A stretch of DNA of 43,292 nucleotides from a virus. A program made the position numbers and the translations under genes. Shown in pieces: positions 18,012-42,618 of the stretch. Location: the IMG/VR virus record IMGVR_UViG_3300036760_000310, positions 1 through 43,292 of that record. One strand, written 5' to 3'. Position 1 is the first letter of the stretch. Every line of letters begins with the position of its first letter. The notes beneath the pieces were generated by a model. It was not told the origin of the DNA. It made no database searches and saw only the letters and a program-made list of their open reading frames with translations.

Positions 18012-20084
18012 TCACGGCCCCGGTGTGGTCCAGAGCACCGCAGGCGGGATGCACCCCATCTTCCTGATACCGCCAACATTGATTTCTGCCAGTAGGCAAT
18101 CGACGAGGATTGTTGCCGGCGTAGGGGTTTGCGTGACGGTGGGTGTGTGGGTGGGGGTGCGCGTTGCCGTCGGGGTGGCTGTTGGGGTTATTGTCGGAGT
18201 TTCCGTGGGGGTGCTTGTCACTGTTGCGGTTGCCGTATGAGTCGGGGTCTCGGTAGGTGTCAATGTTGCCGTCGGCGTGGTGGTTACTGTCGGCGTTGGC
18301 GTCACCGTGGGGGTCTCGGTAGGCGTCGGTGTCACGGTCGGGGTGTCGGTAACTGTAGGGGTGGAAGAAAACGTGGCCGTCGCCGTCGGCGTCACCGTCG
18401 GCGTCTCGGTCGCCGTCGGCGTCACCGTCGGCGTCTCGGTTGGCGTCGGCGTCTCCGTCGGCGTCGGCGTCACTGTCGGCGTGTTCGTGGGCGTCGGCGT
18501 CACTGTCGGCGTGTTCGTCGGGGTAGGCGTCACCGTCGGGGTCGAGGTCGGGGTAGGGGTCACTGTCGGGGTCTCCGTCGGGGTAGGCGTTGGTGTCAGC
18601 GGAGCGGCACACAATTCTAGGACCGGATGCCTGCCATCGAACGTCCTGTAATTGGTCGAATAGAAGTTGACGAAATTATTCACAGTCGGCGGCGCTGGCC
18701 CGTCTAGCCATAGTCGGAAACCCGTGTACCCAGTCGTACTGACCGACGCGATATTCGACAACGAGAAATCATTGAATCCAGTCGTGTTCCACGTCGTAGC
18801 GTCAAGTGTCCCGGCTGCTGTCCCTGTCGCATCCAATGCCCAATCGGCGCAGTCGATCGGCCACTGAGCTGAATCGTAATACCGTAGCAGTACGTTTCGT
18901 GGCGGGTCGTCGATAACGCTTCCAGATCCACGCAAACGTAGACGACCTTCGACCACCCCTAAGCCCGCAGTCAATGTCGTATCGAAACGTGCCAGAAACT
19001 CTACTTGCGACCACTCGAACCCGACATCCCCAGGATGACTCCGGTACGCTCCCGTGATCCCCCCGGTAGTATTTGTGGTAGAACATGCCAGCCCGCCGTA
19101 TGTGGACCCGTAAGCGGTCAACGAGCCATCGTCATCCATATCCCCGACCTCAAAGCTCAGCGGCGTGCCCGTCGCGCACGCAATGGCCGGAGTGGACGTG
19201 GGCATCCGGGTAGGTGTGGGGGTGTGAGTCGGTGTCGGGGTTACCGTCGGCGTGTCCGTAGGCGTCGGGGTTACCGTCGGCGTGTCCGTCGGTGTCGGCG
19301 TTACCGTCGGCGTGTTGGTAGGCGTCTGGGTGGGTGTCGGCGTCACGGTCGGCGTGTAGGTCGGGGTAGGCGTCACGGTCGGCGTCTGAGTCGTGGTAGG
19401 AGTCGCAGTCGGACACGTCCCTCGCTCCAGATAGATGTCCGCAATCTGACCGGAGGCGTGATTGAGTGAAACATCTGCATAGACCGGGTAGGAAATGCTT
19501 GTACCTGATGTATAAAGCAAATACCACGTAGACGTTGATACAGGTTGATAATAATACCGTACTTGAGTGCCTACAATCTGTACACGGAATTTATCATCAG
19601 CACTGTAACTATTTAATATCTGAAACAATACGGGGCCAACCTTTTCATATATCCAAACCGTGGTGTTCCCTGTCGGCTGGATTGCCCACCCTATGTAATT
19701 GGGATTGAAATCAGCATCGTCTGCGAGCGACAACCCCCAAGCCCTGCCGTGCGTAGTGTCTACTGCCGCACGGGCTTCGATGAATCCATCGCCAGAAGCG
19801 ATAGAGACAGTAGAGAACGCCCCCGCGTTCCAGCCCGCTGCGCCAGTCTTGGTGATGTTATTAGTTGATATACTTACACCCGTGACATTCGTCCATGATG
19901 TTACTGCACTACATGCTTGGGGCGTTGCTAATGTTGCAGGCGTTGCGGTTGGGGTCGCGGTGCGAGTTGGTGTCTGCCCCCACGCCATCGAGGGCATCAG
20001 CAGCAGCGCGTACCACGCCACCACAGTCAGCAGCACGAGCAGCGCGTCGAGCCGTGGACGCGCGCTGGCGTGCTGGCGGGTCAT
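18012..20084 (-). CDS. Exported Thr-Pro-linked protein with carbohydrate-binding-like module, 690 aa
   Basis: The start at 20084 gives a signal peptide (residues 1 to about 36: basic N-terminus, [19 protein letters not shown], then PSMAWGQ). The mature protein has a first globular domain (about 55-225) resembling a concanavalin-like jelly roll, a TPTVTPTP linker (about 228-300), a second domain (about 305-505) of the C...LELC beta-sandwich type also present in 24090-27683, a long TPT linker, and a short C-terminal Cys-containing segment. It resembles cell-surface glycan-binding proteins. It is the third exported protein in the late operon. Its start overlaps the stop of the upstream lipoprotein gene. 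A virion fibre or a surface decoy are both possible. Confidence 0.75.
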
Positions 20085-20275
20085 GGTGTCACACAGGTGG
20101 AGTATGTGCCATCCGACATCAGGAAGCAGAGCTGAACGCCATAGGGTATCGGTGTAGGCAGGGCGAACACGGAACACGTCGGGTTCAGTTTGTCGCAGGG
20201 GATGAACTGCTCCGCATCGCCGCGTGTGCAGCCTGCCGCCAGCGCGGCCAACAATGCCACGAACAAGATTTTCAT
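20081..20275 (-). CDS. Small lipoprotein, 64 aa
   Basis: The signal sequence is [16 protein letters not shown] with a good lipobox (LAAGC, Cys16 lipidated). The mature 49 residues contain several Cys and the strings [13 protein letters not shown] and [17 protein letters not shown]. It overlaps both neighbours by four bases. It could be an outer-membrane lipoprotein; an Rz1-like spanin partner is possible by size, but the neighbours are tail genes and no i-spanin is visible. An alternative is a superinfection exclusion lipoprotein. Confidence 0.75.
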
Positions 20276-20628
20276 TCCGTCACCGCCCACAAAAATGCGA
20301 GATACTCCCCAACCTGCGGCACCGAACCCATCACGATGGTCTGTGGATTCCCGGCGCGCAGGTGCCACGCCCCAGCCTCGGGCGGGTCGTTGTCGTCGTA
20401 GAGGTCGGCGCTCGCACCGCGAAAGAGTACGGCCTGCGGTCTGCCCGCAGTGTCCAGACGCACTGCGACCGGAGACAGGAACTCTGTGGCCACCCCATTG
20501 GCTCCCGCGATCGCCACGCCGAACAGCAGCCAATCGAGTGGATTTGTCGATGGCAGTTCGGTGGCGACCATGAACCGGGACCGGCCCAGTTGCAGAATCT
20601 TGATGCTGCCCTGTGTCCTTACCGCCAT
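20272..20628 (-). CDS. Hypothetical protein between tail genes, 118 aa
   Basis: The protein begins [20 protein letters not shown] and is strand-rich ([17 protein letters not shown]), ending [14 protein letters not shown]. Start and stop overlap the neighbouring genes, so it is part of the tail gene run. A small beta-rich tail or cement protein is possible. No family is recognised. Confidence 0.6.
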
Positions 20629-22661
20629 TGCCGCACCGTCCTGAACGTCGCGTCGAGCGCCACACGGTGCAACTCGAAGTCCGGCCCGTCGCTGGCGTTC
20701 AGTATCTGCACGTCAACCACGCGACCGAACGTCTCCTGATCCGTGATCGTGGCCCGAAGATTATGGAAGCCCAGCGTCCCAGCCTCTGCGACGTTAAACG
20801 CGAGAACGCGACTGTCGTCACTGTCGTAGCGCAGTGCGGCCGTGATGGCGGCAGCCGACCGAAGCGACGGCTTCACGTAGTTGATTCGGCCTTCTCGCAG
20901 GACCGGCGTGCGGTCGTCCATTACCCGGGCTCCTGTGCGTACCAGGACGGGGATCAACTGCCCTTCGACCGTTCCGTCGTCGTCAACGCTGCCGCTGTCG
21001 GCCAGGCGCACGTAACCATCGGCGCCGCCGACTAACAACTCGCCATTGTCTTGACCCCCTCCCCAGACGCATGCGGCCTGTAGCGGCATCACGGGCATAT
21101 GCGACCAGGCAACCTTCGGCGATGCGCCTTCCCCGAGGAAGTGCAGGACGTAGCCATCAGCGTCCGCAGGGTCCAGCTTCAGCCAGTATTGTCGGGCATT
21201 CGGGTAGTATATCCCAACGGCGTCGGGATAGCGCACCGTGCTGGTTCGTCCTCGAAACAATGGGCGAAAAGGGTCAGATAGCGTGCGTAGATTTTCGGTC
21301 TGCCCATCAGTCAGATACAGGGCGTCAGAGCCGAGGAAAATCACCCCCCACGGGCTGAGTTGCACCGTGTCAGGAGCTATGCAGCCGCGTTGACTATAAC
21401 GGACGAGTTGTCCGCCACTCAGCGGATCACCGATGAAGTAGAACAGGCAGGTATCCTTCAGGATGATCAGTTGCGGCACGTTGCCGGCCACCGGCACTAA
21501 GCCGGTGATGATCCCACCATCTGGATCGTTGACGGAGAGTTGAATATCGCCACGCCATGTGGTTGGATCGTTGACCTCCGAACCGTAGACGCTGAAATTG
21601 ATCTCGCTCGGAGTTGTGGCCCAGAGTCGGGACTGCCAGAGCGCCGCGTATGGACCGGGAGGCGGAGCCATGCCGCCGACCGCCGCCTCGACCAGTGACA
21701 TTTGGCCAAAGGGTAAGGTCGACGGGCTCGGACTGTCGTACCGCCTGACTGGGTTCAGTCCATCAAACAAAAACGTCGCGTCCTGCTCCGGCCAAGGCAC
21801 AAAGCGCACGCGACGCGCGGCGCGATATGGTCGGTAGCCAGGAAATGTCTGCCAGGTTCCCAACGGCGTAAGCTGCACATGCTGGAGTAGTGGCGCGCCG
21901 AAGACATCAACATTCATTGCTACCAGTGTGACCGGGGGCTGCACGGGCGCCAGGTAATAGACCGTGATCGCCACCGCAGAAACCGTGGCGACGGAACCAT
22001 TACCACCAGCGGTGACAACCAGACCGCACCCAAAAGCCGTGTTGATGTCGTCTGGATCCCAGACAAGACCCCAGGTGTCACCAGGACCGCCATAGGAGAC
22101 CTGTGTCGCCGCCGCGTTCCAGATTCCTGCGCGCGCGCGGTCTTCATCAGTCAAAGCGTCGAGCAGATAGAACAACCGCATCGAACTATCTGTAATCGTG
22201 CCCGTGGCCGATCGGATAACATCGACCTGAATCCCCGTCACGACGGCATTTGCAGGCAGGGCAAAACCGAAATCGCGCACCCGAAGAATGCGGCTGATTT
22301 GTCCCGTATTGAGCGTGCTGCTCACGGGCTGACTGACGCTAAAGGTTGCAGTATTGGCCCACGTAATCGCGGAACCAGACTGAACATAGTCGGTCGCCGT
22401 GAACGAGCCGACCGGGCCGAGTTTTATCGAGCCCTGCCGCGGGTAATGCCGGTGCATGCCAACGAACTGCTGCCCATCGAAAATCTCGATGCTGCGTCGC
22501 ACCCGGCCGCGCCGTCCACGCACGCCGCCGCTCGGGAGATACTCGAGGTTGTCAGCCTTCAGGAGTGCATTCGCCGGCAGGGCAAAGCCAGGTTGAGGCG
22601 CTGCCTGGTCTGGGTCCCCGGGAATCCAGAGGCCGTCGGAGAAATCGAGCCACGGCTGCAT
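20619..22661 (-). CDS. Tail nozzle/stabilisation-like protein, 680 aa
   Basis: The protein begins MQPWLDFSDGLWIPGDPDQ and continues ADNLEYLPSGGVRGRRG, the N-terminus I associate with podovirus tail nozzle (P22 gp10- or T7 gp12-like) proteins. An inserted beta-sandwich (about 90-225) interrupts a beta-propeller-like body with repeated short strands (LQAACVWGGG, GELLVGGADGYV, YGSEVNDPTTWRGD). It would form the end of the short tail attached through the adaptor encoded by the next gene upstream. It overlaps 20272-20628 by ten bases. Confident as a tail structural protein, less so on the exact name. Confidence 0.7.
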   Translation of the reverse strand: MQPWLDFSDGLWIPGDPDQAAPQPGFALPANALLKADNLEYLPSGGVRGRRGRVRRSIEIFDGQQFVGMHRHYPRQGSIKLGPVGSFTATDYVQSGSAITWANTATFSVSQPVSSTLNTGQISRILRVRDFGFALPANAVVTGIQVDVIRSATGTITDSSMRLFYLLDALTDEDRARAGIWNAAATQVSYGGPGDTWGLVWDPDDINTAFGCGLVVTAGGNGSVATVSAVAITVYYLAPVQPPVTLVAMNVDVFGAPLLQHVQLTPLGTWQTFPGYRPYRAARRVRFVPWPEQDATFLFDGLNPVRRYDSPSPSTLPFGQMSLVEAAVGGMAPPPGPYAALWQSRLWATTPSEINFSVYGSEVNDPTTWRGDIQLSVNDPDGGIITGLVPVAGNVPQLIILKDTCLFYFIGDPLSGGQLVRYSQRGCIAPDTVQLSPWGVIFLGSDALYLTDGQTENLRTLSDPFRPLFRGRTSTVRYPDAVGIYYPNARQYWLKLDPADADGYVLHFLGEGASPKVAWSHMPVMPLQAACVWGGGQDNGELLVGGADGYVRLADSGSVDDDGTVEGQLIPVLVRTGARVMDDRTPVLREGRINYVKPSLRSAAAITAALRYDSDDSRVLAFNVAEAGTLGFHNLRATITDQETFGRVVDVQILNASDGPDFELHRVALDATFRTVRQWR

Positions 22662-23739: not shown

Positions 23740-24093
23740 CTAGGCTCCGATGATCCCGTCGAGGTGCGTCTGCACCGTGGCCACGATAGCCGGATCGGGG
23801 TTGCTGCCGGCCGCGCCGCCGAACACCAACAAGATGCCGCCTCCGTTGATGGGGATGTTAGAAGTTTGCTGTCCCGCCAGCCGGACGCGGGCAGCATGGT
23901 CGGTCCGAAGGAGGAGGATCTGTGGCGCCGTCAACGGAGGATCGACCGGCAGAGGCTCATAGATGCCGTCTGGCGTCCGTGCCATGCGGAAGATTTTGAG
24001 GTGGTCCACGGTGACGCCAGCGACGATCGGGTAGCCTGCGACATGGCGACCGTCTTGCTCGAGATCGAGTTGTAGAAGAACGGCGTGGCTCAT
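23740..24093 (-). CDS. Hypothetical beta-rich protein, 117 aa
   Basis: The protein begins MSHAVLLQLDLEQDGRHV and contains YPIVAGVTVDHLKIFRMA and GGGILLVFGGAAGSN. The stop and start overlap or lie four bases from neighbours. It is immediately before the 1,197-residue exported protein in position but after it in transcription. No domain is recognised; a small tail or decoration protein is plausible. Confidence 0.55.
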   Translation of the reverse strand: MSHAVLLQLDLEQDGRHVAGYPIVAGVTVDHLKIFRMARTPDGIYEPLPVDPPLTAPQILLLRTDHAARVRLAGQQTSNIPINGGGILLVFGGAAGSNPDPAIVATVQTHLDGIIGA

Positions 24094-27000
24094 TGGGGCA
24101 CCACGCAGAGGTCGAGCACCGGCGCGTTATCCGCGTCGACGGCGTACAGATTGACCTCATTTTGGCCGGTTGGCCGATCCCCTACGACACCGATCCGCAT
24201 TTTCGTGTAGCCGCTCATGTTTACCCCGGCTGTAGGAAGGGCGAAATTGATGGCGATGGGGAAAACATTTGCGTAGGAGATGCTCATCACGAAGACGCTA
24301 TCTGCGATGTCGAGAGCGTAATCATTCGCGGTGATCAAGCCATCGGTAAGCCACTCTCCCATGAGGAGTTGGCCGTCGGCGTTTTTCATGCCCGCGATCG
24401 TCAGATGGAGGGTCGCTGTAAGAGCACGATATGGCATGGCCGTGTTCCAACGCATTACGGCCACCGTGTTCCAGTAGGCCTGCTGGTAGAAGTCGTTGAC
24501 GACCTGGTTCACGTTGGCATCGGTCCATACGACCGTCGCCCCGGTGGGCGGATAGGTGCCGCCGCGCTTCCCCACCATGCCATCATCGCCACTGGTGGCA
24601 ATCGGGATCGACACGACGAAACACGGCGGGGTCGGGGTTGCGGTTAGGGTTGGGGTTGCCGTGATGGTCGGAGTTGTGGTCGCCGTGAGGGTTGGGCCGC
24701 CGGGAGTAATCGTCGGCGCCGGGGTTGGCGTCTCGGTTGGTGTCGCCGTGACGGTCGGTGTCGCAGTTGGCGTGTCGGTTTTGGCCACCAGCACTTGAGG
24801 GACGAATCGCGCGCGCGGGGTTCCGGTCTTAGTCGCCGTCGGCGTTGCTGTCGCAGGAGGGGTAGCTGTAGCTGTTGGGGTCGCGGTGCTCGTCCTGGTG
24901 GGCGTCGCGGCTGGCGCCAGGAGCACCTGAAGCGCGAACTTCGGCGCGGGGGTTCGCGTTGGAGTCTGCGTGACCGTCGGTGTGACTGTTACAGTTGGCG
25001 TTGGAGTTTCGGTCGGTGTCGAGGTCGCCGCAATTGATCCAGTCGGAGTCACTGTTGGTGTCTGCGTAACGGTCGGTGTCTGCGTGACCGTAGGGGTAAT
25101 CGTCGAGGTAGGCGTTACTGTTAACGCCAAGAGCACTTGAGGCAGGAACTTCGGCGCAGGGGTACGTGTCACCGTCGGAGTCCGCGTCGGCGTCCTCGTC
25201 GCAGTCGGTATCGCGGTCGGCGTCCTCGTCGGCGTCCACGTCCGTGTCGGCGTTGCCGTGAGCGTAGGAGGGGATGTTGGCGTTGCCGTATAAGCCATGA
25301 GCACCTGCGCGACAAACCGCGGTTTCGGAGTCTTCGTAGGCGTTGGTGTAGGCGTTGGACTGATGAAGAACGGTGGTGTGGGTGTGAAGGTTGGCGTTAT
25401 TGTCGGCGTTTGCGTTACTGTCGGTGTAGGTGTCGGCGTGGCGTCTGAAAGGCACAGTTCCAATACCTCGCCATTCGTGTTCGCCATCGTCGTCGGGTAA
25501 TCCGCGCTGTAGATGTAGACATCGTTGTAGTTGTTATCACTAGTCGGCTGCCCTCCGTCTACCCATGCTCGGAACCCTGTATGACCAGTGGTGTTGATCA
25601 AGGTTGGACTGAATGACGAGCGCTCAATACCCGTACCCAAGGCAGACAACGCAGTAGAAAAAGCAGTTGTGCCGGCGGGAGTAGAGGTGAAGTCGCTACA
25701 GTTGATCGGCCAATTTGCTGGGTCATAGGTCTTGACGACCAACGAGTTTGCGCCATCCCAAGCAACGAAGCTCACGTCATAACGCAGCCATGCCGCCGCG
25801 ACGACTTTCCCTACAGGGATCACGCTCGTGTCGAAGCGCATCGCGCTCATTACCCAGTAGTACTGTCCACCAGAGACGTACCGTGCCGCTTCGAGCACGT
25901 CGTTGTTGACCGCGTACTGGCAGACGGGCGCGGCGTAGTTCGTCGAAGTAGCCCATACAAAGCTGTCGTCCGTGCTCGCCGTGATCGGCACAGTGAGGCC
26001 CGTCTGCCCGCCAGTGCATCCACTAATAGTCGGCGTCGTGGTGCGCGTAGGAGTCTGCGTTGGGGTGCTTGTTGGCGTAGGTGTCTGCGTAGGGGTTGCT
26101 GTGCTTGCGGGGGTATTCGTATTTACTGGGGTATTGGTCGGCGTCCATGTCAACGTGGCTGTGGCGAGTGGTGTTGGGGTATTTGACGGCGCGAGGAGCA
26201 CCTGAGGGACAAAGCGTGGAGCGGGCGTATGTGTGGGCGTCGATGTTGGAGTCGGAGTTGGAAGAGCGTAGCAAAGTTCGAGGACAGGACGATAGAGAGC
26301 ATTATCAGCGCTTCTCCACGTAAACCAATTGATACCCGTCGGTTGGCCTCCGTCTATCCACACGCCAAACCCCGTGTACCCAGCAGGGTTGATCAATGCT
26401 AGATTGGACAGTGCGAAATTGTTGTACGCATTGATACTTAGAGAGGTGACGGCGGTACTGTTATTAGCAACAGGCCCCCATGCGTCGTTTGTCCAGTCCC
26501 ATATATCAATCGGCCAGTCGCTAGGATTCATGTATCGGATATCTACGTTGCGAGCATCGTCCCAGGCGGTCGAGACCCCATACAGCCGCAACCGACCAGC
26601 TACTACCAACATCCCATCCGGTAGGGTCGTATCGACCCGCATCATGGCCATCCGTTGCTCGAATAACCCGTCACTCAAATAGCGCCCAGCTTGGTTTTGG
26701 GTCGTGGTAGTACTGACGGAACTACACGAGTAATTGGGGTATGAAAACGATTGAGCTGCGTACAGCGTGCCGTCATCGGACGGTGTGTTCAGCTCGAAAC
26801 TCGCCGACGTTCCCACCGCGCACCACGTGCTGGGAGTGTAGGTCGGTGCTGGAGTTCTGGTGCTGGTTTGTGTCGGGGTCGGCGTCACCGTAGGTGTGGA
26901 CGTAATGGTTGGGGTGGTGGTTGATGTTAAGTCAGGCGTCGGGGTCGTCGTCGGTGTTGGCGTCACGGTTGGCGTCAATGTTATAGTTGGTGTTGGTTGC

Positions 27001-27683
27001 GTGTACGTGACGAGTAGATACGGACGATACCCAGAGGTGCTGGACTCTTGCTGGTACACGTATATATATTCCCCCGCCGGCGGACTTGTACTGGCACCAT
27101 CACGATTAGACAGCAAACAGTAAAGAGTGTTCCCCGAGCCTTTAGCTACGTACTCATTTGTCAGCACATCCGATTCATAGATAGTGTTGACATCAGCAGT
27201 CGTAGTGTCCTTCCAGGTCGTAGCTCCAGTCGCGCCAAGACACCCATCATAGTTGGCTTCACGGTTCCCAGAGGTGAGAGGACTACTCCAGGCATATTCT
27301 TTGATCTGTGCGATGAAATTGTAATTGAGTAACGTGGACTCGATTACCATTCCCAGTTTCACTTCGGTGATGGTGGCGTCACTAGGAATCGCCGCCCCGG
27401 TGGGGAACTCTAAGAACACCCTGCTGACGTAATAAACACTCCCTGACTTTTGCTGGCCGAGTTGTGCAATCTCACTGGTGGTTTGACTGTTGACTGAAGT
27501 TGACCTCGCAGTGGCATATATAGTGCTTATTCCCGTGATGCTACCATCAGTGTCGTTCCCGTAGATTGTGACCTGCGTGGCAGACGCAACCGTACCCCAC
27601 CCTCCGAGGAGAGCAAGGCACACCATCAGGCAGGCGAATGAGCGAAAGGGGGCTACATTCGGTGAAGGCCGCAAACGGCGCAT
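24090..27683 (-). CDS. Exported multi-domain Thr-Pro-linked protein, 1,197 aa
   Basis: A signal peptide is visible (basic MRRLRPS, then FACLMVCLALLGGWGTVASA). Four beta-sandwich modules resembling DNRLRE-type domains follow: about 36-228, 285-470, 560-745 and 1020-1197. Modules 2-4 begin near a Cys and end PVLELC, EVLELC or PVLDLC. They are joined by linkers of TPTPTVT-type repeats. In these linkers a hydrophobic peptide of the form RF-VPQVLLA recurs five times. Such proteins are typical of bacterial surface adhesins, and the gene is unusual inside a phage structural operon. It lies between tail gene 23740-24093 and the secreted 27717-28358. Glycan binding is suggested but not shown. Confidence 0.75.
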   Translation of the reverse strand: MRRLRPSPNVAPFRSFACLMVCLALLGGWGTVASATQVTIYGNDTDGSITGISTIYATARSTSVNSQTTSEIAQLGQQKSGSVYYVSRVFLEFPTGAAIPSDATITEVKLGMVIESTLLNYNFIAQIKEYAWSSPLTSGNREANYDGCLGATGATTWKDTTTADVNTIYESDVLTNEYVAKGSGNTLYCLLSNRDGASTSPPAGEYIYVYQQESSTSGYRPYLLVTYTQPTPTITLTPTVTPTPTTTPTPDLTSTTTPTITSTPTVTPTPTQTSTRTPAPTYTPSTWCAVGTSASFELNTPSDDGTLYAAQSFSYPNYSCSSVSTTTTQNQAGRYLSDGLFEQRMAMMRVDTTLPDGMLVVAGRLRLYGVSTAWDDARNVDIRYMNPSDWPIDIWDWTNDAWGPVANNSTAVTSLSINAYNNFALSNLALINPAGYTGFGVWIDGGQPTGINWFTWRSADNALYRPVLELCYALPTPTPTSTPTHTPAPRFVPQVLLAPSNTPTPLATATLTWTPTNTPVNTNTPASTATPTQTPTPTSTPTQTPTRTTTPTISGCTGGQTGLTVPITASTDDSFVWATSTNYAAPVCQYAVNNDVLEAARYVSGGQYYWVMSAMRFDTSVIPVGKVVAAAWLRYDVSFVAWDGANSLVVKTYDPANWPINCSDFTSTPAGTTAFSTALSALGTGIERSSFSPTLINTTGHTGFRAWVDGGQPTSDNNYNDVYIYSADYPTTMANTNGEVLELCLSDATPTPTPTVTQTPTITPTFTPTPPFFISPTPTPTPTKTPKPRFVAQVLMAYTATPTSPPTLTATPTRTWTPTRTPTAIPTATRTPTRTPTVTRTPAPKFLPQVLLALTVTPTSTITPTVTQTPTVTQTPTVTPTGSIAATSTPTETPTPTVTVTPTVTQTPTRTPAPKFALQVLLAPAATPTRTSTATPTATATPPATATPTATKTGTPRARFVPQVLVAKTDTPTATPTVTATPTETPTPAPTITPGGPTLTATTTPTITATPTLTATPTPPCFVVSIPIATSGDDGMVGKRGGTYPPTGATVVWTDANVNQVVNDFYQQAYWNTVAVMRWNTAMPYRALTATLHLTIAGMKNADGQLLMGEWLTDGLITANDYALDIADSVFVMSISYANVFPIAINFALPTAGVNMSGYTKMRIGVVGDRPTGQNEVNLYAVDADNAPVLDLCVVPQ

Positions 27684-27716
27684 GAGCGATGCTCGTACAT
27701 GGCGCGGGCCGTGCGG

Positions 27717-28358
27717 CTAGTTCGAGTAACGAATGGTCGTGCTGAGTATACCAATAGCTCCAGTAACCTCATTACCACCACATGCGATACGCTTGAGTTT
27801 GAGTGTTGCCTGGGCGCCTTGGCATGTCGTACTAGCACATGCAGACCCTGTATGTGCATCAACGATATTTTCAGGTACTGCAATAATTGTATCTGTGGGA
27901 TTGTATTGCCCCCACGTCTGTTCCGTTACGTTTGTTCCGACTCCTAAGGCGCCAAGAGAAGTCGTACGATAGTTCTGGCCCCCATACGATACCGGCCAGC
28001 TTGTGATGGACGTTTGCCAGCAAGCGACATGTCCCGAAGTGTTATCTGTTTCCGGCATATACTCGACGACAACATACAGGTATGAAGCAGAGTTTGCCGC
28101 GCTATAGTCGTTCTGCACATTGAAATGGAAATACACCGTATCCGCAGTTGTCGTCGTGCAATCTGCCACGGTGTATGGTTGACCATTTGTACCTGGTGAT
28201 GCAGCATTTGCCGCACACGGAGTCGTTGTACCATACTCTGCTTGTCCGCCTTGTATATATACAAAGCTAGGTGCAGCCCATGCCCTCGGCACCGCCACCG
28301 TCATCACGAGAAGGGCCGCACACGCAACCCCAATGAGTCGTCGAATGAATGCTGTCAT
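27717..28358 (-). CDS. Exported protein with four or more Cys, 213 aa
   Basis: The start at 28358 has CGGAGTGACA upstream. The signal peptide is MTAFIRRLIGVACAALLVM, then TVAVPRAWA, cleaved before APSF. The mature part is strand-rich with paired Cys (TTPCAANAAS, VADCTTTT, ACASTTCQG, RIACGG) and ends ILSTTIRYSN. It resembles secreted beta-sandwich surface proteins. It is next to two other exported proteins. Family not recognised. Confidence 0.65.
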   Translation of the reverse strand: MTAFIRRLIGVACAALLVMTVAVPRAWAAPSFVYIQGGQAEYGTTTPCAANAASPGTNGQPYTVADCTTTTADTVYFHFNVQNDYSAANSASYLYVVVEYMPETDNTSGHVACWQTSITSWPVSYGGQNYRTTSLGALGVGTNVTEQTWGQYNPTDTIIAVPENIVDAHTGSACASTTCQGAQATLKLKRIACGGNEVTGAIGILSTTIRYSN

Positions 28359-28475
28359 TGTCACTCCGCGTGCCACTCCCCGTCGCAGCGTGCCCCGTCT
28401 ATGCACGCACCGCTGATGGATGGCCTCCGAAGCGCACGGGGAACGCGCCCGGTCCACCAGCGGCACGCTGTCTTC

Positions 28476-29390
28476 TTACGTTGGCGTCGGGCTCGGTGAT
28501 TGTGTCGGTGTCCTAGTCGGTGTCGGTGTCGGCGTCGGAACCGTCGTTGGCGTGTGCGTCCAGGTGGGCGTCGGCGCGTTCGTTGGCCACGGAGTGCGTG
28601 TCTTTGCCGGCCCTGCCGTCGGAGTCGGCGTGAAGCAGTTCGGCAACTCACCTTGCTCCACAACCCACACGGGGATCGGCGTAGCGCTTCCAACACACTG
28701 GAACGGTTGTTCTGCCGTCGATCGACCCTTGTAACCGTTGTCGACGCCGAAGCGCAGTGGCGAGCTGGCGATCACGGGCACCCAATCGGCTTCCGCGCTT
28801 GCGACAGGACCACAAAGCAGATTCCCCGACGTGTCCGTACTACGCAGCTCCAGGAGCCAGCGACCAGAGGGCGCGCCTACTCCACTGGCGGTGGCGTTCA
28901 TCAGGTATTTCGTGGTGCGGCTACCCACACCGGCAACACCACGGCACAACGCAGTGGGAGTTGGCGTAACGGTCGGGGTGAAGGTGCGCGTGGGCGTTTC
29001 GGTCGGGGTGAAGGTATGCGTGGGCGTGAAGGTCAGGGTCGGCGTGAACGTCGGTGTCGCGGTGTGCGTTGGCGTTACGGTTGGCGTTTCGGTCGGCGTT
29101 TCGGTTGGCGTCTCGGTCTGCCCAAGGGCGGCACCAGCCGCAATGAGGCTGAGAAAACAGACAACGACCGTCTTGCTGGCGAACTCACGGAGTTTCTTGA
29201 TGGGCATCTTCGGATCTCCAGCCTGGGGGTGTCCGGCTTTCGCGCGCCCGTAGGCGGCGCCCATGTAGCGCCGCTGCTTTTTGGAGACGGCAGGGTTGCA
29301 GCTCAACTCTTTGGCGATCTCACCACAGCCCTGGGCAAAATGCGCGTGCGCTTTGGCCATGGCCTTGTCAGCCATCGGCGGCTGAGGCAT
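28476..29390 (-). CDS. Thr-Pro-rich protein with internal signal peptide, 304 aa
   Basis: From 29390 the frame gives a short soluble part (MADKAMAKAHAHFAQ, SKKQRRYMGAAYGRAKAG) and, from residue 62, a complete signal peptide beginning MPIKKLREFASKTVVVCF. That internal ATG (29207) has GGAGATCC upstream, so the exported form may start there. The mature part holds [11 protein letters not shown] repeats, a Cys-containing domain (about 160-260) and a TPT-rich end. No stop separates the two parts. The upstream piece has the SKKQRRYM motif of small phage proteins. Which start is used is uncertain; both may be real. Confidence 0.6.
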   Translation of the reverse strand: MPQPPMADKAMAKAHAHFAQGCGEIAKELSCNPAVSKKQRRYMGAAYGRAKAGHPQAGDPKMPIKKLREFASKTVVVCFLSLIAAGAALGQTETPTETPTETPTVTPTHTATPTFTPTLTFTPTHTFTPTETPTRTFTPTVTPTPTALCRGVAGVGSRTTKYLMNATASGVGAPSGRWLLELRSTDTSGNLLCGPVASAEADWVPVIASSPLRFGVDNGYKGRSTAEQPFQCVGSATPIPVWVVEQGELPNCFTPTPTAGPAKTRTPWPTNAPTPTWTHTPTTVPTPTPTPTRTPTQSPSPTPT

Positions 29391-29415
29391 GCGATGTTTT
29401 TCACGCACGTCACCC

Positions 29416-30078
29416 TCACGCCGCCACGCGCGGTACGTCGACCGCCGCCGGCTGTTCGTCCAGGAGGCTGTAAGGGTACGAGAGGCGCTGATAGTGGACG
29501 AGGCGCGGGTTCTCGTCGACATCGAGTTCCTTGGTCCATACATCATAGACCGCGTTGTCGAGGACTTCGAGATGTTCAACCGGAAGCACAGTGGCATCGC
29601 CGCGCCGCACAATGAGAAGATTGCCGTTTACTCCGAGGGGTACCGGCCAATTTTGGGCGGGATCCTCGTGCGTATGGATGAGCACTGTGCACAGTCCGCC
29701 TTTGGTGCGAATGCGATCGTAGGTGCTCCGCCGCTCCATAGCCGCCTGAATCAGCGCGACTTCGCGCGCAACGGCAGAATAGCCGCCCCTATCTTTCGCT
29801 ATCTTCTGGACCAGTTCCATATTCTCGGCCAACTGCTCCTCGAGGAGTTTGATCTTGCGTTCCAGTCTGGAAGTCGGATCTTCCGGTGGCGGTGCCTGTG
29901 CGTCGGCGAGCGCCTCACGTTCTTCGATCTGGGCAGGGGTTGCCCCGACGTACTGGTCCATCGGCCCGTCGAGCTTCCGATCTTCCGCCTGTATCTCGGC
30001 GATGATCTCGCCCAGCGGTTTGTTGAGATCGAAGGGTGCCCCAGATGGGAGGCCCCCTGCTTTGTCAGGCTTGGCCAT
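29416..30078 (-). CDS. Hypothetical head-region protein, 220 aa
   Basis: The protein begins MAKPDKAGGLPSGAPFDLNK. The N-terminal half is helical (KPLGEIIAEIQAEDRKLD, then RLERKIKLLEEQLAENMEL) and coiled-coil-like; the second half is strand-rich (LCTVLIHTHEDP, NLLIVRRGDATVLPVEHLEV). It lies directly after the possible decoration protein. A head completion or minor head protein is possible. No family recognised. Confidence 0.55.
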   Translation of the reverse strand: MAKPDKAGGLPSGAPFDLNKPLGEIIAEIQAEDRKLDGPMDQYVGATPAQIEEREALADAQAPPPEDPTSRLERKIKLLEEQLAENMELVQKIAKDRGGYSAVAREVALIQAAMERRSTYDRIRTKGGLCTVLIHTHEDPAQNWPVPLGVNGNLLIVRRGDATVLPVEHLEVLDNAVYDVWTKELDVDENPRLVHYQRLSYPYSLLDEQPAAVDVPRVAA

Positions 30079-30589: not shown

Positions 30590-31624
30590 TTACGCGGTCT
30601 TCAGGGCCGCTGTGACTTCGCCGCGCACCATGAAGGTTTCATTCAGGCGCCGGCGTGCTCCGGTGTGCTTCCAACCGGAGGTGCCAATCTGGTTCAGAGG
30701 ATCGCTCGGACCCCCAGACCCGATCGGCTTGATGATGTTCTCCAACGACATGCCCTCCAGGGGCACCGCCGCGATCGCCCCCTCGGCAAACGCCAGGATG
30801 CTGTAAACGTCGGCGTTGCCGGAGGTCGATTTCACATCGCCACTGACCGTGCCGCCGCCGCCGCGGAAGACCTTCGCGCCGCCCTGCGCGTCTCCGGTCC
30901 CGCCACTAGAAGCGAGGAATCGCAGTTCGCGCCAGGCGCCCACTTCGGCTTCCATCACCGGGCCTTGGCTCGCGTACTCCACGACCGGGGTGTACTCGGT
31001 CAAGCCTTCCAGGGTCCGCACCACGTCGGGGTGCGTGATGACCCAGAAGGCCGGGCGGATACCCACTGTCGAAACCTTCACGCCGGCTGTGACCATTTCC
31101 GTGAAGCGCGAGGCGTTGGCATTGAACAGAGCGTTGATCATCCGGTCAAGCAGCCCCGCGTCAACCTTGTGGGTTGTCGTGGTCAACTGTGCTCGGCTCG
31201 CCGCTGTGCCGCCGTAGAAAACGTTGGTTCCAGCGTTGGCCTCTTCGCGCATCAGCACGTCGATGGTTTGTGCCGCCTGCTCGCCTAGGAGCTTGCTGTA
31301 GTCGTTGAGCAACGGGTGATCGATGGTGGCCTTGATCAAGTCAGCCACCGTCACATAGTCGCCGTATTGCTGGATGCGCACGTTAATGTCGGTGTGACTG
31401 ACCTTTTTCCCACTCGGGGGTACGCCCTCGACCAGTGGCACAGTCGCCAGGCCAAGCGGCTCCAGCCGGCGGAAGACGATGGTGTTCCCGCTCTTTTGCT
31501 TGAGCGATCGCCGCTCCGCCACGCGCGAATGTACCAGCAACGGCAAAGCCCGCGCGAGGAGCTTGCGGTCGAAGTAGGTCTGTACCACCGGGGGGATTAC
31601 ACCAGTATCTGTCAATACGCCCAT
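30590..31624 (-). CDS. Major capsid protein, N4 gp56-like
   Basis: A 344-residue HK97-fold capsid protein of the N4 gp56 group. Characteristic pieces are QTYFDRKLLARALPLLVH near the N-terminus, KQKSGNTIVFRRLEPLGLAT, PLVEGVPPSGKKVSHTDINV, QQYGDYVTVADLIKATIDHP, and the C-terminal EIxG-type stretch replaced here by GWKHTGARRRLNETFMVRGEV. A strong ribosome site (AGAGGTGAAAG) precedes the start. It lies after the scaffold-like and portal genes, the usual head gene order. High confidence. Confidence 0.85.
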   Translation of the reverse strand: MGVLTDTGVIPPVVQTYFDRKLLARALPLLVHSRVAERRSLKQKSGNTIVFRRLEPLGLATVPLVEGVPPSGKKVSHTDINVRIQQYGDYVTVADLIKATIDHPLLNDYSKLLGEQAAQTIDVLMREEANAGTNVFYGGTAASRAQLTTTTHKVDAGLLDRMINALFNANASRFTEMVTAGVKVSTVGIRPAFWVITHPDVVRTLEGLTEYTPVVEYASQGPVMEAEVGAWRELRFLASSGGTGDAQGGAKVFRGGGGTVSGDVKSTSGNADVYSILAFAEGAIAAVPLEGMSLENIIKPIGSGGPSDPLNQIGTSGWKHTGARRRLNETFMVRGEVTAALKTA

Positions 31625-31634
31625 CTTTCACCTC

Positions 31635-32627
31635 TCAAGCGCCACTACCATGGCGCCGCTCAAATTCTTTGAATTCCGTGTCGTTCATGTTCCAGATTGC
31701 TTCGGAGTCTACCTTGATGCGCTTCGTGCCCGGCCCTGCCTCACGCAGTATCTGCGAGGCGCCGCGCTCGGCCGCCTGCTGGATCTTGTGCGTCACGTCC
31801 TGCTGGGCATCGGCTGCAGTTCCCGCCGCGTCGAAGATTGCCTTCAGGGCCGCGACGTCGTTGCCCTTGTGGCGACTGCGCAATTCAAGAAAGGCCGCGC
31901 TGTACATCTCCGCCACTGCCGGGTTGTCGGGGTGGAGCATCGCAACGGCAGAGCGCAAAGCTGGATTCGTCTGGTATGCGGGCTCGAGATGTTTGGTGCG
32001 GAGGCTGTCGTAATCCAGGCCGCCGGGAAACGCTGTCGCGCTGAACTGGCCGCGCGCTTCGGCCTCCGAAGATGCACGCCGCGCCTCTTGCGAGAGCTGC
32101 ATGCGCAGATCGCCGAAACCGCGCTCGATCATCCACTGATTGTACTGCAACAATTCCTCGGCGGTTGCTTCACCGGACTTCAGTCGCTCGATGTCGATCG
32201 GCGGCTTGGCAGCCGCTTCATTCAGGCGCCGGCTCCGTTCGTCGATGAGCGGCGCAAACTGCGACCGCATTTCGTTGACGAGTCGCGTCAGTTGCTGATT
32301 TTGCGCCTGAAGATCTTGCGGGCTGAATGGAGCAGGAGACGGGGCAGCCACGGGACCTGGAGCAGATGAGGGAGGAGGACCAGTTACGCCCTCTGCCGTA
32401 GCGGGTTCCGAGCTGCCCTCGGGAGGAAAGTCGAATTCAATAGTTGGTTCGGGGGGAGTTTCTGTCCCGCCTTCCGTTCCGGATGCCGCCGGCGTACTGC
32501 CGTCCTCTGGAGCCCCACCGCGAAGCAGCGGGATTGTGGTTCCTGGGTAACAGAGCGGGAGTCGCAGGCTCATGGTGTTAGGTATGGCCAAGTTTTTGTC
32601 GTGCGCAAGGATTTCTGTCACTTTCAT
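31635..32627 (-). CDS. Scaffold-like protein with YPGT leader, 330 aa
   Basis: The start at 32627 overlaps the portal stop (ATGA). The protein begins MKVTEILAHDKNLAIPNTM, then SLRLPLCYPGTTIPLLRGG. A Pro/Ala/Glu-rich disordered part follows (about 40-110), then a long charged helical part (QDLQAQNQQLTRLVNEMRSQ, then SRRLNEAAAKPP) and a helical C-terminus ending EFKEFERRHGSGA. Position between portal and capsid, high Gln/Glu/Ala content and helical form are typical of phage scaffolding proteins. ATG at 32573 is a possible later start. The YPGTxIxLxRGG stretch also occurs in 16427-17548. Confidence 0.65.
   Translation of the reverse strand: MKVTEILAHDKNLAIPNTMSLRLPLCYPGTTIPLLRGGAPEDGSTPAASGTEGGTETPPEPTIEFDFPPEGSSEPATAEGVTGPPPSSAPGPVAAPSPAPFSPQDLQAQNQQLTRLVNEMRSQFAPLIDERSRRLNEAAAKPPIDIERLKSGEATAEELLQYNQWMIERGFGDLRMQLSQEARRASSEAEARGQFSATAFPGGLDYDSLRTKHLEPAYQTNPALRSAVAMLHPDNPAVAEMYSAAFLELRSRHKGNDVAALKAIFDAAGTAADAQQDVTHKIQQAAERGASQILREAGPGTKRIKVDSEAIWNMNDTEFKEFERRHGSGA
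32604..32620 (-). repeat. Copy 2 of the TGACAGAAATCCTTGCG junction motif
   Basis: Minus-strand TGACAGAAATCCTTGCG, three bases after the portal stop and inside the first codons of the scaffold-like gene, where it encodes the VTEILA part of MKVTEILA. It matches copy 1 over 17 bases and copy 3 over 15 bases. Confidence 0.85.
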
Positions 32628-34555
32628 GATGTGGGAGTTGATGGTGCCGATGGCGGAGGAGGCATTCCGCCCCCCATTTCCGCCTGTATCCTGGCATTCG
32701 CAAAAGCGAGAATTTTTGCCGCGTCGTCCTCGTCGATGATGCCAGCCTCTTGGCCGCGAGAGATGAGCACCTCGGGTGGAATGAAGCCGGGATATTCGCG
32801 GGCAATCTCGCGCAGCGTGTTGAACATCGTCATACGCAGGCTCGGCTCCCACGGCTTCGTGTCGTCAATCACGGTGTCGTACTCGGCGAGCATCGCATCC
32901 TGAAGGATCGTTTGTACGTCGTCGCCGACGCTTGTCAGCATCCCTTGCACCTGTCCGGTCTTGTCGCGTGCCGCCATTGTGCCGAGAATGCGGATCGCCT
33001 TCGAGACGGGCATGTACTGTTGGATTGCCTTCACCATGAACTTGATCGCCGGTTCCTTGTCGTCGCGGAAGGAATCGATCAAAGGCTCCTGGGAAACCAC
33101 GCCGGGGCGCTGGATCGCTTCGACGTGCTTGGCGGAGGTCGTGTAACCGGGCGCGGCTGGTGCGAGGGCGCGCGTGCTGATTATCTCGGCCATTTCCTGA
33201 TCGCATTTCTGATCGAGGAAGACGAGCGTCTGCGGTAACTCGGGAGGCTTGATCGCCGTGGGCATGATGTCCTCGTAGGGAATCTGCGCTCCACTGCCAT
33301 TGGCGAAGTTTTCGATGTCTTCGGTCTTGGCGCCGCCGATCTTACGGTTGAAAAACCCAGATATGGGCATGCGGTGAATGATCTCAACCGTCGTCGAGCG
33401 GGTCTTGTTCTTCTGGCGCTGCGGATCCTTCAGTGGTTCGACAATGCCAAACGGATTCTGCCAGAAGTAGTAGGCGGTCGCTGGGAATATAGGGAACTGC
33501 GCTTCGTCGAATGGGCTCGACTCGTCGGACAGGAGCAGGTCATTCAAAACGGTCGCCACCCGTATCTGCGTGACTGGCCGTTCGATGAACTGGAAGTGCT
33601 CCGTCTCTGCCGGGTAGCGTCGAGCGCGGTCACGCAGTGACTTGACGCGATCTTGATCACCCTCGATTTGGCCGTCGATGGAGTTGCGAGCAACGGTGAC
33701 GGTGACACGTCGCTTGTACCAGGTCTCTAGCACGCGAATACGCTGCGTGTCTGGGTCCCAAAATAGGCGCTCGCCAGACCATGAATCCCCTGCGCTCTCT
33801 GCCGTGCCGCCGTTGTTGCCTATGACGACACCTCCCTCGGTCAGCCATTCACCAAACTGTTTCGCTATCTCCTCATGGTACATTGACCAGCGATCTTGCG
33901 CCTTGGGTCGCGTAAACCACGTTGCATGAATCACGTACTCCGCGTCGGACCACTCCTGATCAAACCAGTTGGGATCGGCGTAGATCGACAGCGGATGCGC
34001 GCGAGTCCAGTCCGGCCGGCCGTCAGGTTCTACCTCATAATCCATGACGATCTTCCAGTAGCCCAGGCCGGTGATGATTTTGTCGAGAAAGATGCGTGAG
34101 TCCTTCTTCCGCTCGTGGCTCTGTTTGCTCACGTACTTCAGCAAGAGGCTCATGAGTTCCGCACCGCGTGGGTTCTGCCCAGAGAAGGGCAGCAACGTGG
34201 CCTGGGTGCGCGCTTGACGCTGCATGCCAGCCAGGAGGAGTATCGGGCTGAGAATTTTGTTGATCACCAGGTGCGGGCGTTGCACGGTTGCGTTGTCGAG
34301 CGTGCTGAGGTCATCTTGATCCCACTGCTCGTTGCCCGCAAACTGGTAACTTTCGATCGCTCGTGTGCGCCAAGTCTGCGTGGTCCGCGCGGAGTTGCGA
34401 TACCACTCGTGTACCTGAGCGACAAACTTTCGCCGCCCGTCAGGAGTATCGGCGCCCTCTTCGTCTTGCGTCCTCGACGTTGCGCCGCCAGTCACGACGG
34501 AAGGTTGATAGCCAAACTGGCGCTGCGAGGCTTCGACGCCCATGCAATACCACAT
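32624..34555 (-). CDS. Portal protein, P22-like
   Basis: A 643-residue protein. The region around TTQTWRTRAIESYQFAGNEQ, WDQDDLSTLDNATVQRPHLV and GLGYWKIVMDYEVEPDGRPD is typical of P22-type portals, as is a later QKCDQEMAEIISTRALAPAA segment. It ends with a Pro-rich tail (MPPPPSAPSTPTS). The portal forms the ring through which DNA is packaged and ejected. The start may be ATG 34555 (MWYCMGVEAS) or ATG 34543. It follows the large terminase after 33 bases that hold copy 3 of the junction repeat. Confidence 0.85.
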   Translation of the reverse strand: MWYCMGVEASQRQFGYQPSVVTGGATSRTQDEEGADTPDGRRKFVAQVHEWYRNSARTTQTWRTRAIESYQFAGNEQWDQDDLSTLDNATVQRPHLVINKILSPILLLAGMQRQARTQATLLPFSGQNPRGAELMSLLLKYVSKQSHERKKDSRIFLDKIITGLGYWKIVMDYEVEPDGRPDWTRAHPLSIYADPNWFDQEWSDAEYVIHATWFTRPKAQDRWSMYHEEIAKQFGEWLTEGGVVIGNNGGTAESAGDSWSGERLFWDPDTQRIRVLETWYKRRVTVTVARNSIDGQIEGDQDRVKSLRDRARRYPAETEHFQFIERPVTQIRVATVLNDLLLSDESSPFDEAQFPIFPATAYYFWQNPFGIVEPLKDPQRQKNKTRSTTVEIIHRMPISGFFNRKIGGAKTEDIENFANGSGAQIPYEDIMPTAIKPPELPQTLVFLDQKCDQEMAEIISTRALAPAAPGYTTSAKHVEAIQRPGVVSQEPLIDSFRDDKEPAIKFMVKAIQQYMPVSKAIRILGTMAARDKTGQVQGMLTSVGDDVQTILQDAMLAEYDTVIDDTKPWEPSLRMTMFNTLREIAREYPGFIPPEVLISRGQEAGIIDEDDAAKILAFANARIQAEMGGGMPPPPSAPSTPTS

Positions 34556-34574: not shown

Positions 34575-34591
34575 CGCAAGGATTTCTGTTA
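34575..34591 (-). repeat. Copy 3 of the junction motif (TAACAGAAATCCTTGCG)
   Basis: Minus-strand TAACAGAAATCCTTGCG, in which TAA is the stop codon of the large terminase gene. It lies 19 bases before the portal start. In another frame it belongs to a stretch reading QLTEILAAKGLTV from GTG at 34604 that overlaps the portal gene. Confidence 0.85.
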
Positions 34592-36073
34592 GTTGCTCAT
34601 CCACGTCCGTCGGCCGCTGGCGCGTCGTGGCCGGGCAAAGGGGTCGAAGACGGGTAGGCGTTCCGGCTTGGTGAGCTGTTTGGCTTCGCCACTGGTCACC
34701 GAAAATTCGCCGCTGCACCCATATTCGAGCGCGTTGCATAGATGCGAGAATTTGTTCTTCAACGGCGCCCTAGCGAGTCGCCCATCGGTGGACTTCGGAT
34801 AGCGATAGCCACCCAGAAGGCCCTCCATGAGGATCGGACAACCGTTGCGGTCGATCAGGATGGCGGGCCCGCCGTCGATCATGCGATTGCAGCGCTGGTC
34901 CACCGCCTCGAAGCGTGATCGTAGGTCCTCTGCCCCGGGCTGTACCGGAAAACCCTTGGCGGCGAGAATCTGAAAGCAGGTTTTCTCGTCCGTCTGCATG
35001 CGCGCCTTACCCGCGGGGTCGGCCCAGCCACGCCACTTCGAGAAAACCGAGAAATCCGCCTTCAACAACTCGTGTAATTCGTCGCCTAGGCGCTCGATGC
35101 CGGCCGACCACATCTGCAACTCCTTGTAAATCTGGAAACGGCCATTTGGCAGGGTCTGCCCGATCAAGCAGCAGGGCGTGAGACCAAAATCGAACATCAA
35201 GATCAGCGGCACCGTCGCCAATGGTTTCAACGCTTCGACGAAATGGTGCTGTTCATAGAACTGCGTGTAGACGCGCTGCCCAGGGTAGATGGTAACGACC
35301 TCTCCCAGCACAAAACGGCGCGCGAGCTCCTCTCCGAGAGTCGCCAGCAAGCGGTCGTAGTAGCCAGGCGGTAGGTGGACCGCGTTTTCAAACGGCGGAC
35401 AGCGGAACAGGGCATAATCCATGGATGCCAGTTCCTCTGGCTTCGGCTTGAAGAAGGTGTCGTACACCCAGTGGAACCCAGAGGGCGGGTTGAAGGTCAA
35501 CACTATCTCCAATCGGTGCATGTCGCGCTGACGTTGGCGCATCATCGCGGTCTTGAACAACTCCTGGGGAAGGCCCGCACCGATTACACCTCCCTCGGAC
35601 TGGTAGGCGGGTACGGGTTCTTCCAACCAGATGAAAGCGTACTCAGTTGACAGCAGATTGCTCACCTCTTCCGGCCGCCGGCAATGCCGGAAGTCAAGTT
35701 CGTGAGTCATCATGTCGCCGGCAAAGCTCGGGATCGTGATCTTGAGCCGTTCGTCACCCTTGTTGTAGTGGCTGCAACCCCCGAACCATTCACGGATAGT
35801 GCGTTCGGTCGAGTCGTGCAACTGGCGATACGATTCGCGCACGACGAGGCCGCGCACCGGCACGACGCTCTCGGTGCATAGGAAGAAGAACTCGAAGGCT
35901 GCCGCCGACGACTTGCCAGACCCGACGGGGCCGCACAACGCTTTCACCTGAGCGTGTGATTCGTGGAAGGGCACTACCGAAGGGTGTGGCCGGTACTCAC
36001 GCAGCTCGGTTGGCAACGCGCTGGCGTTCGGTCTTGACCTCGATAGCTTCTTGTCGAGCTTGTTCTGTGCCAC
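34589..36073 (-). CDS. Terminase large subunit
   Basis: A 494-residue packaging motor. Walker A is GPVGSGKS (about residues 48-55), Walker B is AFIWLEEP (about 145-152), and the nuclease acidic residues are in ILMFDFGLTP (Asp294) and GWADPAG (Asp351). It would translocate DNA into the head and cut it. The first codon used here is GTG at 36073, 77 bases inside the small-subunit gene. TTG at 36016 (LPTELRE) would shorten the overlap, so the start is uncertain. It is directly downstream of the small subunit. Confidence 0.9.
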   Translation of the reverse strand: MAQNKLDKKLSRSRPNASALPTELREYRPHPSVVPFHESHAQVKALCGPVGSGKSSAAAFEFFFLCTESVVPVRGLVVRESYRQLHDSTERTIREWFGGCSHYNKGDERLKITIPSFAGDMMTHELDFRHCRRPEEVSNLLSTEYAFIWLEEPVPAYQSEGGVIGAGLPQELFKTAMMRQRQRDMHRLEIVLTFNPPSGFHWVYDTFFKPKPEELASMDYALFRCPPFENAVHLPPGYYDRLLATLGEELARRFVLGEVVTIYPGQRVYTQFYEQHHFVEALKPLATVPLILMFDFGLTPCCLIGQTLPNGRFQIYKELQMWSAGIERLGDELHELLKADFSVFSKWRGWADPAGKARMQTDEKTCFQILAAKGFPVQPGAEDLRSRFEAVDQRCNRMIDGGPAILIDRNGCPILMEGLLGGYRYPKSTDGRLARAPLKNKFSHLCNALEYGCSGEFSVTSGEAKQLTKPERLPVFDPFARPRRASGRRTWMSN

Positions 36074-37049: not shown

Positions 37050-37236
37050 TCGTCGCCTGTCCCGCGCCGATCAACGCGCCTAGCCGATCGTGCGCAATCT
37101 TCAGTTGCGCATCAATCGCCGCCATCTGTTCAGGCGCAACGGTGGTTGTCACGGCCAGCTTGCGAAGCTGCTCAGCGAGCGGCAGTAACTGAGTGACCAG
37201 CGTCAAAATGAGTTGCACGATTCCGGCGACGTTCAT
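37042..37236 (-). CDS. Small protein with hydrophobic N-terminus, 64 aa
   Basis: The N-terminal helix MNVAGIVQLILTLVTQLLPL is amphipathic or membrane-associated and is followed by a charged helical part (PEQMAAIDAQLKIAHDRLGA). It overlaps the next membrane gene by eight bases and the lipoprotein by four. It could be a small inner-membrane partner of the neighbouring proteins. Confidence 0.6.
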   Translation of the reverse strand: MNVAGIVQLILTLVTQLLPLAEQLRKLAVTTTVAPEQMAAIDAQLKIAHDRLGALIGAGQATNG

Positions 37237-37637
37237 GCGGCACCTCCTGCACTGCTGTCAATATGAATTCTCGGGAACACACTCACGGCCGATGGCGGCG
37301 CGAGTTTGCGTTGATTCAGATCCGCCAGAATGTCCGTCGCAATCTGTAAGACGGTGGCGATGTAGACTTGCGCGGAAGCCGGATCCTTCGCCACCAGCGC
37401 CTCCGCTGTGGCCAGCGCCCGTTGCGCGCGTTCCAGATTGCCGTAGATATCGCGCGCCTGCCCGATGTCCAAGCGACCCGCCAGAATCAGGTCTTCGGTC
37501 ATCGTGTACGCCGCCGTCAACGACAGCTTGACCGCCGCCACGCTGCGCAGCGCCGTGTCTTGCGGCGTCGGCGAGGAGACCACCGACCCACAACCCGCCA
37601 GCAACACCATCATCGCCAACACCACAACTCGTCTCAT
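37233..37637 (-). CDS. Lipoprotein with helical domain, 134 aa
   Basis: The signal sequence MRRVVVLAMMVLLAGC has a good lipobox (LLAGC, Cys16). The mature part is helical (TALRSVAAVKLSLTAAYTMT, then RLDIGQARDIYGNLERAQRA) and ends HIDSSAGGAA. With the membrane proteins at 36621-37236 it forms an envelope-associated set at the start of the late operon. A spanin subunit is possible but the partners do not show a clear i-spanin. The ribosome site GGGGGTTAGG precedes the start. Confidence 0.7.
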   Translation of the reverse strand: MRRVVVLAMMVLLAGCGSVVSSPTPQDTALRSVAAVKLSLTAAYTMTEDLILAGRLDIGQARDIYGNLERAQRALATAEALVAKDPASAQVYIATVLQIATDILADLNQRKLAPPSAVSVFPRIHIDSSAGGAA

Positions 37638-37645
37638 GACGTCAC

Positions 37646-42539: not shown

Positions 42540-42571
42540 AAGCCGCTTGTCCCATAATGTCGAGACGAATG

Positions 42572-42586
42572 CAATAGAGCCTATTG
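42572..42586. promoter_or_regulatory. CAATAG-AGC-CTATTG palindrome between integrase and early operons
   Basis: A perfect inverted repeat of six bases with a three-base spacer. It lies between the divergent integrase start (42539) and the ribbon-helix-helix gene (42619), and overlaps a TTGACA hexamer. Upstream, TAGACG (42529-42534), 18 bases and CATAAT (42553-42558) is a weak rightward promoter. It may be an operator for the small regulator next to it. Confidence 0.45.
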
Positions 42587-42618
42587 ACAAAGTGCAGAAA
42601 AAAGAGGAAGAAAGGCTC

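Follow-up and report, generated by a model that had tools for sequence, protein, structure and literature searches.

Short motifs repeated along the disordered chain of CsoS2 bind their partners by avidity. CsoS2, which belongs to the alpha-carboxysome, is a disordered multi-motif linker protein (PMC10484944). TPT linkers are found, in glycosylated form, in Cellulomonas cellulases and in a polyprotein of Caldicellulosiruptor that has three CBM3 domains (PMC12757957). Linkers rich in Thr and Pro are usually dismissed as inert spacers; in the five phages considered here, they are interrupted almost exclusively by one conserved peptide centred on a Gln.

The window, that is, the whole stretch of DNA analysed (an IMG/VR virus record of 43,292 bases, in which a tRNA search returned no tRNAs), is the contig of a temperate tailed phage and holds a capsid-packaging cassette on its minus strand (Table 1). 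The peptide-bearing gene is located between the capsid gene and conserved downstream genes. By a simple heuristic, Sec-like starts were observed on several consecutive genes of the cassette (24090-28466, as well as 18012-20177 and 28476-29612), likewise in the cassettes of relatives (L153, L170, L173, L176-L180), and even in relatives lacking Thr/Pro linkers (G003, G412); a structural cassette encoding exported products, export being predicted here by heuristic only, is unusual. At 28476-29612, the reading frame of a signal-peptide-like Thr/Pro protein stays open through a small conserved sequence, HFAQGCGEIAKELSCNPAVSKKQRRYMGAAYGRAKAG, ahead of it, and the counterpart at L153 4267-5061 has the same arrangement, possibly reflecting a fusion or an internal start. 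Small lipoprotein-like ORFs were also detected at 37236-37664 of the window (MRRVVVLAMMVLLAGCGSVVSSPTP) and at L154 7776-8147 (MKAQRSIVIGLTLLLVGCSSIISSPTP).

Table 1. Features of the window discussed in the text (aa, residues of the 1,197-residue protein unless a length is given).
Feature	Position	Strand	Remarks
1,197-aa gene	24090..27683	-	signal-peptide-like start, CBM96-like domains, Thr/Pro linkers, five peptides
Predicted Sec signal peptide, aa 1-36	27576..27683	-	heuristic; L006 ortholog has one too
Globular domain 1, N-terminal, aa 37-226	27006..27575	-	
Globular domain 2, CBM96-like beta-sandwich	26265..26822	-	AF2 and Foldseek
Globular domain 3, homolog of domain 2	25443..26018	-	alignment
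Globular domain 4, homolog of domains 2 and 3	24096..24623	-	alignment; Cys-rich tail instead in L006
Copy 1, RFVPQVLLA, aa 490-498	26190..26216	-	linker between domains 2 and 3
Copy 2, RFVAQVLMA, aa 789-797	25293..25319	-	long linker before domain 4
Copy 3, KFLPQVLLA, aa 845-853	25125..25151	-	long linker before domain 4
Copy 4, KFALQVLLA, aa 915-923	24915..24941	-	long linker before domain 4
Copy 5, RFVPQVLVA, aa 959-967	24783..24809	-	long linker before domain 4
Adjacent exported-looking protein, about 210 aa, start MTAFIRR	27717..28358	-	candidate partner
Thr/Pro-rich protein without peptide	28476..29612	-	internal comparison
Thr/Pro-rich protein, one CBM96-like domain, without peptide	18012..20177	-	internal comparison
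680-aa structural-cassette gene	20619-22661		kept in relatives of the window phage
Major capsid protein	30590..31624	-	PHROG 1357, E=1.3e-56; query for finding related phages
Portal	32624-34555		minus-strand cassette
Terminase	34589-36073		minus-strand cassette
Integrase	41484-42911		

The 1,197-residue protein had been called exported in an earlier note on this DNA, and its clear Sec-like N-terminus (MRRLRPSPNVAPFRSFACLMVCLALLGGWGTVASA, judged by the same kind of heuristic) supports that prediction. Its globular parts, compared with the ortholog in contig L006, give a dN/dS of 0.09, and the ORF is therefore taken to be real. The Thr/Pro linkers that connect these parts are 58, 83 and about 280 residues long. 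The AF2 model of domain 2 (pLDDT 85.3, pTM 0.83) was matched best by Foldseek in the PDB to the chondroitin-sulfate-binding module 8wab (E=3.5e-6, TM 0.60-0.67), followed by the alginate-binding module 7vbo (E=3e-5, TM 0.54), and its viral structural matches include phage proteins annotated as CBM96, such as A0A0K2CP88. The Pfam CBM96 profile (PF24517) matched domain 2 alone, with 14.3 bits against a gathering cut-off of 26 (E=0.037), so that the domains are called CBM96-like by fold, without family membership by sequence. They are probably carbohydrate-binding. A Pfam search with domain 1 gave zero matches up to E=5, and domain 3 had zero matches in phage and plasmid records; a weak PilY1-like match of domain 3 in one genome was judged irrelevant. 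The AF2 model of domain 3 with its linker has a pLDDT of 30 over the whole stretch, domain included, which amounts to no confidence. PHROG 15511, a phage family with no function assigned, matches Thr/Pro stretches in this protein and in others that these phages encode.

Five peptides of the form [RK]F-x-x-QVL[LMV]A interrupt the second and third linkers of this protein, flanked by low-complexity Thr/Pro sequence, while the first linker holds none. All five had been quoted exactly in the earlier note, which placed them within 24787-26220; the peptides do lie there, except that the left edge trims four bases off copy 5. The claim that TPT follows every copy is true as well, and the gap from QVL-x-A to TPT is exactly three residues each time. 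The peptides are not due to chance: the DNA pattern for F-x-x-Q-V-L-x-A-xxx-TPT has five matches in the window versus zero in 100 dinucleotide shuffles, and among 20,000 shuffles of the linker residues only eight contained one [RK]FxxQV and none contained more.

Relatives were picked through the capsid protein, every contig with Thr/Pro proteins being taken, and all of the genomes compared are metagenomic. Four related phages carry the peptide, here called G001 (contigs L006 and L154), G005 (L013, L153), G409 (L078, L170) and G410 (L079, L173). The G001 ortholog has five copies in the same order and with nearly the same spacing (299, 56 and 70 residues between the first four). In the 3' part of L154 10651-14133, a Cys-rich module (DDCCQCWDDEDNPTLSC) takes the place of the C-terminal CBM96-like domain; since the peptides persist before it, the C-terminal module was swapped and the peptide-bearing linker retained. 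G005, whose capsid protein is 80% identical, has two YxxQYL copies (DYVTQYLFAPTATPT and DYFPQYLAGPTRTVT) in a 422-residue protein that is the ortholog of domain 3 together with its linker. The capsid proteins of G409 and G410 are 57-58% identical, and these phages encode, respectively, nine VPPQPVPN-type copies in one protein plus one in another (ten) and twelve VPPQVLEN-type copies in one protein plus one in another (thirteen). Copies in the main proteins are of type TPAVPPQPVPNT in G409 and TPAIPPQVLENTPT in G410. The single copies, TPALGGQYVPNT and TPALEGQYIADT, are found just after the signal peptide of a second exported-looking protein, one in each phage, which is unrelated to the stalk protein. 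Spacing between copies shrinks towards the C-terminus in both main proteins, being 81, 53, 41, 55, 39, 33 and 29 residues in L170 15666-19433 (G409) and 73, 69, 45, 59, 29, 25, 25, 23, 19 and 21 residues in L173 13390-15837 (G410). Right behind the Thr/Pro linker these two proteins end in AWRPKPMPWIF and AWRPRALPWIF, and the product of L154 10651-14133 ends in PIRKGVMPYYFG; these ends are possibly a C-terminal tag of stalk proteins.

Altogether, 35 copies from seven proteins of five phages align without gaps around the Gln as P-x-[hydrophobic]-x-x-Q-x-[LV]-x-[N/A/G], the per-copy residue list having taken in one false copy (L006 aa 935) and left out the first G005 copy. With Gln as position 0, every copy has a hydrophobic residue at -3; position +2 is Leu, Val or Ile except in one G410 copy, where it is Arg. 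In nearly all copies, position -5 is Pro and position +4 is Asn, Ala or Gly. When Thr-free interruptions of at least six residues were collected from Thr-rich sequence in 17 proteins of the five phages, no motif being assumed, 34 of 40 turned out to be this motif; the Thr/Pro linkers of window 18012-20177 and 28476-29612, G409_335 and G410_359 had zero interruptions. The strict motif, which fits all but a few of the 35 copies (those of G005 fit the relaxed form only), was observed 4, 5, 9 and 10 times in linkers versus a mean of 0.003-0.008 in shuffles. Outside the peptide proteins it was matched four times in six-frame translations of the five phages and two related contigs (229,129 residues). 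The motif is thus confined almost entirely to the Thr/Pro linkers of proteins that look exported. No record of it was found in the libraries or open-access literature searched, and scans of viral collections, at the pattern stringency used, returned only these five phages and chance matches.

The earlier note had proposed a search of TPT-rich proteins of bacteria and phages. In bacterial genomes, the motif pattern showed no excess over chance in 201 Chloroflexota genomes or in 198 genomes of a second phylum. No prophage with a close capsid gene was found in 400 Chloroflexota genomes (two weak matches). Cys-rich modules beside TPT linkers are reminiscent of Binatota-type genomes. A separate peptide, R-x-Y-L-P-[LVI]-[VI]-[LM]-R, is strongly over-represented in 50 Anaerolineae genomes (L181-L204): the matches listed include about 90 occurrences, whereas the reversed pattern, used as control, gave about 8. 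Among 20 contexts, about 15 place it at most three residues from the C-terminus, sometimes after a Thr/Pro linker. No paper on this peptide was found, and it is possibly an undescribed C-terminal tag of Chloroflexota exported proteins.

Whether the copies merely reflect repeated DNA can be judged from their silent sites. Between the window and L006, the peptides have a pS of 0.57, a pN of 0.15, a dN of 0.17 and a dN/dS of 0.16 (dS about 1), and at silent sites they have diverged as much as the remainder of the gene has (pS 0.55-0.61). Between copies of one phage, silent sites are largely randomised (pS 0.55-0.71), and the seven core codons show a dN/dS of 0.18 in the window, 0.22 in G410 and 0.06 in G409. 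The DNA of the G005, G409 and G410 copies is unlike that of the window, yet the protein pattern remains. A recombination or packaging site in the DNA that is incidentally translated is thus hardly credible, even though some codons are common to the copies, and nucleotide duplication alone, with no peptide in relatives, which the earlier note had named as the outcome that would count against the motif, is contrary to these data: silent sites diverged and amino acids were kept. The motif recurs in related phages and is held at the protein level. As a block, however, the peptide is no more conserved than its linker, because the surrounding linker has similar values against L006 (dN 0.17, dN/dS 0.17), the domains being lower; only core positions stand out, with F, Q, V and L retained in all five window/L006 pairs. 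The window copies have 34 of 63 codons in common versus 24 expected, which traces them to old duplications whose amino acids were subsequently kept. At the DNA level, the copies resemble each other more within the peptide than in most of the flanking sequence. These shared codons would also suit a partnerless element, a hinge or spacer free of glycosylation, which interrupts the Thr/Pro register and owes its spread and uniformity to ancient duplication of the linker DNA, as would some identical recent copies in G410 (IPPQVLEN) and the C-terminal shortening of spacing in G409 and G410, which growth of an array at one end would give. Such a hinge is nevertheless rather unlikely, as it needs neither a fixed Gln nor hydrophobic residues, and it fits poorly with the low dN/dS between copies at nearly saturated silent sites, with the same motif in the unrelated G409 and G410 protein, and with the other long, uninterrupted Thr/Pro linkers of the same phages.

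The earlier note offered four options, namely an interaction peptide, a site for a protease, a beta-strand that self-assembles and a repeat unit of the DNA, and the first of these fits best. The preferred reading, to which we give a probability of roughly 0.42, takes the peptide for a short linear docking motif that occurs in 2 to 12 copies along the Thr/Pro stalk of a probably Sec-exported phage protein and binds a partner outside the cytoplasm. The Thr/Pro stretches would be extended and may be O-glycosylated, since secreted bacterial Thr/Pro linkers often are (PMC12757957), leaving each peptide as an accessible island, and many weak sites together could hold the fibre onto its partner. The stalk might serve as a coat of the dying host, as decoration of the virion, or as a block of re-adsorption. 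Alternatively, the peptides could be stickers that pair with one another in the same molecule or across molecules, tying stalks into bundles or a network in which Thr/Pro sequence is the soluble spacer; this needs no partner, and it suits the many copies, the regular spacers and the hydrophobic core seen in the window, G001 and G005. We consider such self-association unlikely, because the G409 form AVPPQPVPN is saturated with Pro, has few large hydrophobic residues and is poorly suited to beta structure or aggregation, although it aligns with the others without gaps, and because generic stickiness does not require an invariant Gln; the same Pro-saturated form speaks against a beta-strand or amyloid sticker as a general explanation and would favour an extended, recognised ligand over an aggregating strand. 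Less probable still is an envelope sorting or retention tag that the export machinery of the host would read and that was taken over from the host's own Thr/Pro proteins. The outwardly similar Chloroflexota tag RxYLPLVLR, of a basic-aromatic-aliphatic-Pro-x-Val-Leu type, on exported-looking proteins and often after Thr/Pro linkers, and the RPxxxPWIF ends behind the stalks of G409 and G410 speak for it, but the phage peptide is internal, repeated and contains Gln, and its pattern is at chance level in the bacterial genomes searched. Processing sites that free domains after export would take advantage of accessible hydrophobic islands among probably glycosylated, protease-resistant linkers; this is very improbable, because window copies 2-5 (four of the five) and most G409 and G410 copies share a single linker without a folded domain between them, where cleavage would free linker only.

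For the docking motif, the partner could be a protein of the host envelope or a phage product exported together with the stalk, and the neighbour of about 210 residues is a candidate suggested by its gene position. In G001 and G005, its homologs (35-40% identity) are encoded next to the peptide gene, and near its place G409 and G410 encode a different exported family (50% identity to each other); the two families could not be linked (hhalign probability 1.6). The peptide form co-varies with the adjacent exported family, FxxQVL or YxxQYL with one and VPPQ with the other, although shared descent alone would give the same. No phage gene was found that occurs in every peptide phage and that the other phages clearly lack. 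A wider proposal, that this phage clade exports stalked carbohydrate-binding proteins from its head-tail cassette and uses an undescribed extracytoplasmic peptide-recognition system, with a Gln-centred peptide in 2 to 12 copies and a receptor that is possibly the adjacent exported protein, is doubtful at present. In any case, the conserved peptide is a precise bait sequence, by which the function of a group of exported-looking phage proteins becomes directly testable.

Compared with described systems, domain 2 has, by AF2 and Foldseek, the fold of CBM96 or DNRLRE-like modules (PF24517; PDB 7vbo, 8wab) and of phage proteins that contain them, and domains 3 and 4 are its homologs, whereas the phage domain falls below the Pfam cut-off and the peptide is no part of CBM96. 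The best stretches of PHROG 15511 cover the Thr/Pro linker, and the peptide is not described by that family. The Chloroflexota tag outwardly resembles the phage peptide in being hydrophobic, often beside a Thr/Pro linker and similar in residue pattern, but it is C-terminal, single and without Gln. Bacterial Thr/Pro-linked enzymes likewise have carbohydrate-binding domains joined by TPT linkers (PMC12757957); however, they are cellular enzymes rather than phage proteins, and the linkers printed in that paper have no repeated hydrophobic, Gln-centred peptide. CsoS2 (PMC10484944) differs in being cytoplasmic and devoted to shell assembly, with sequence and setting unrelated to the phage stalk, and the likeness would be conceptual only, in that copies of one short motif, strung along a chain that is disordered in CsoS2 and may be so in the stalk, would bind partners by avidity.
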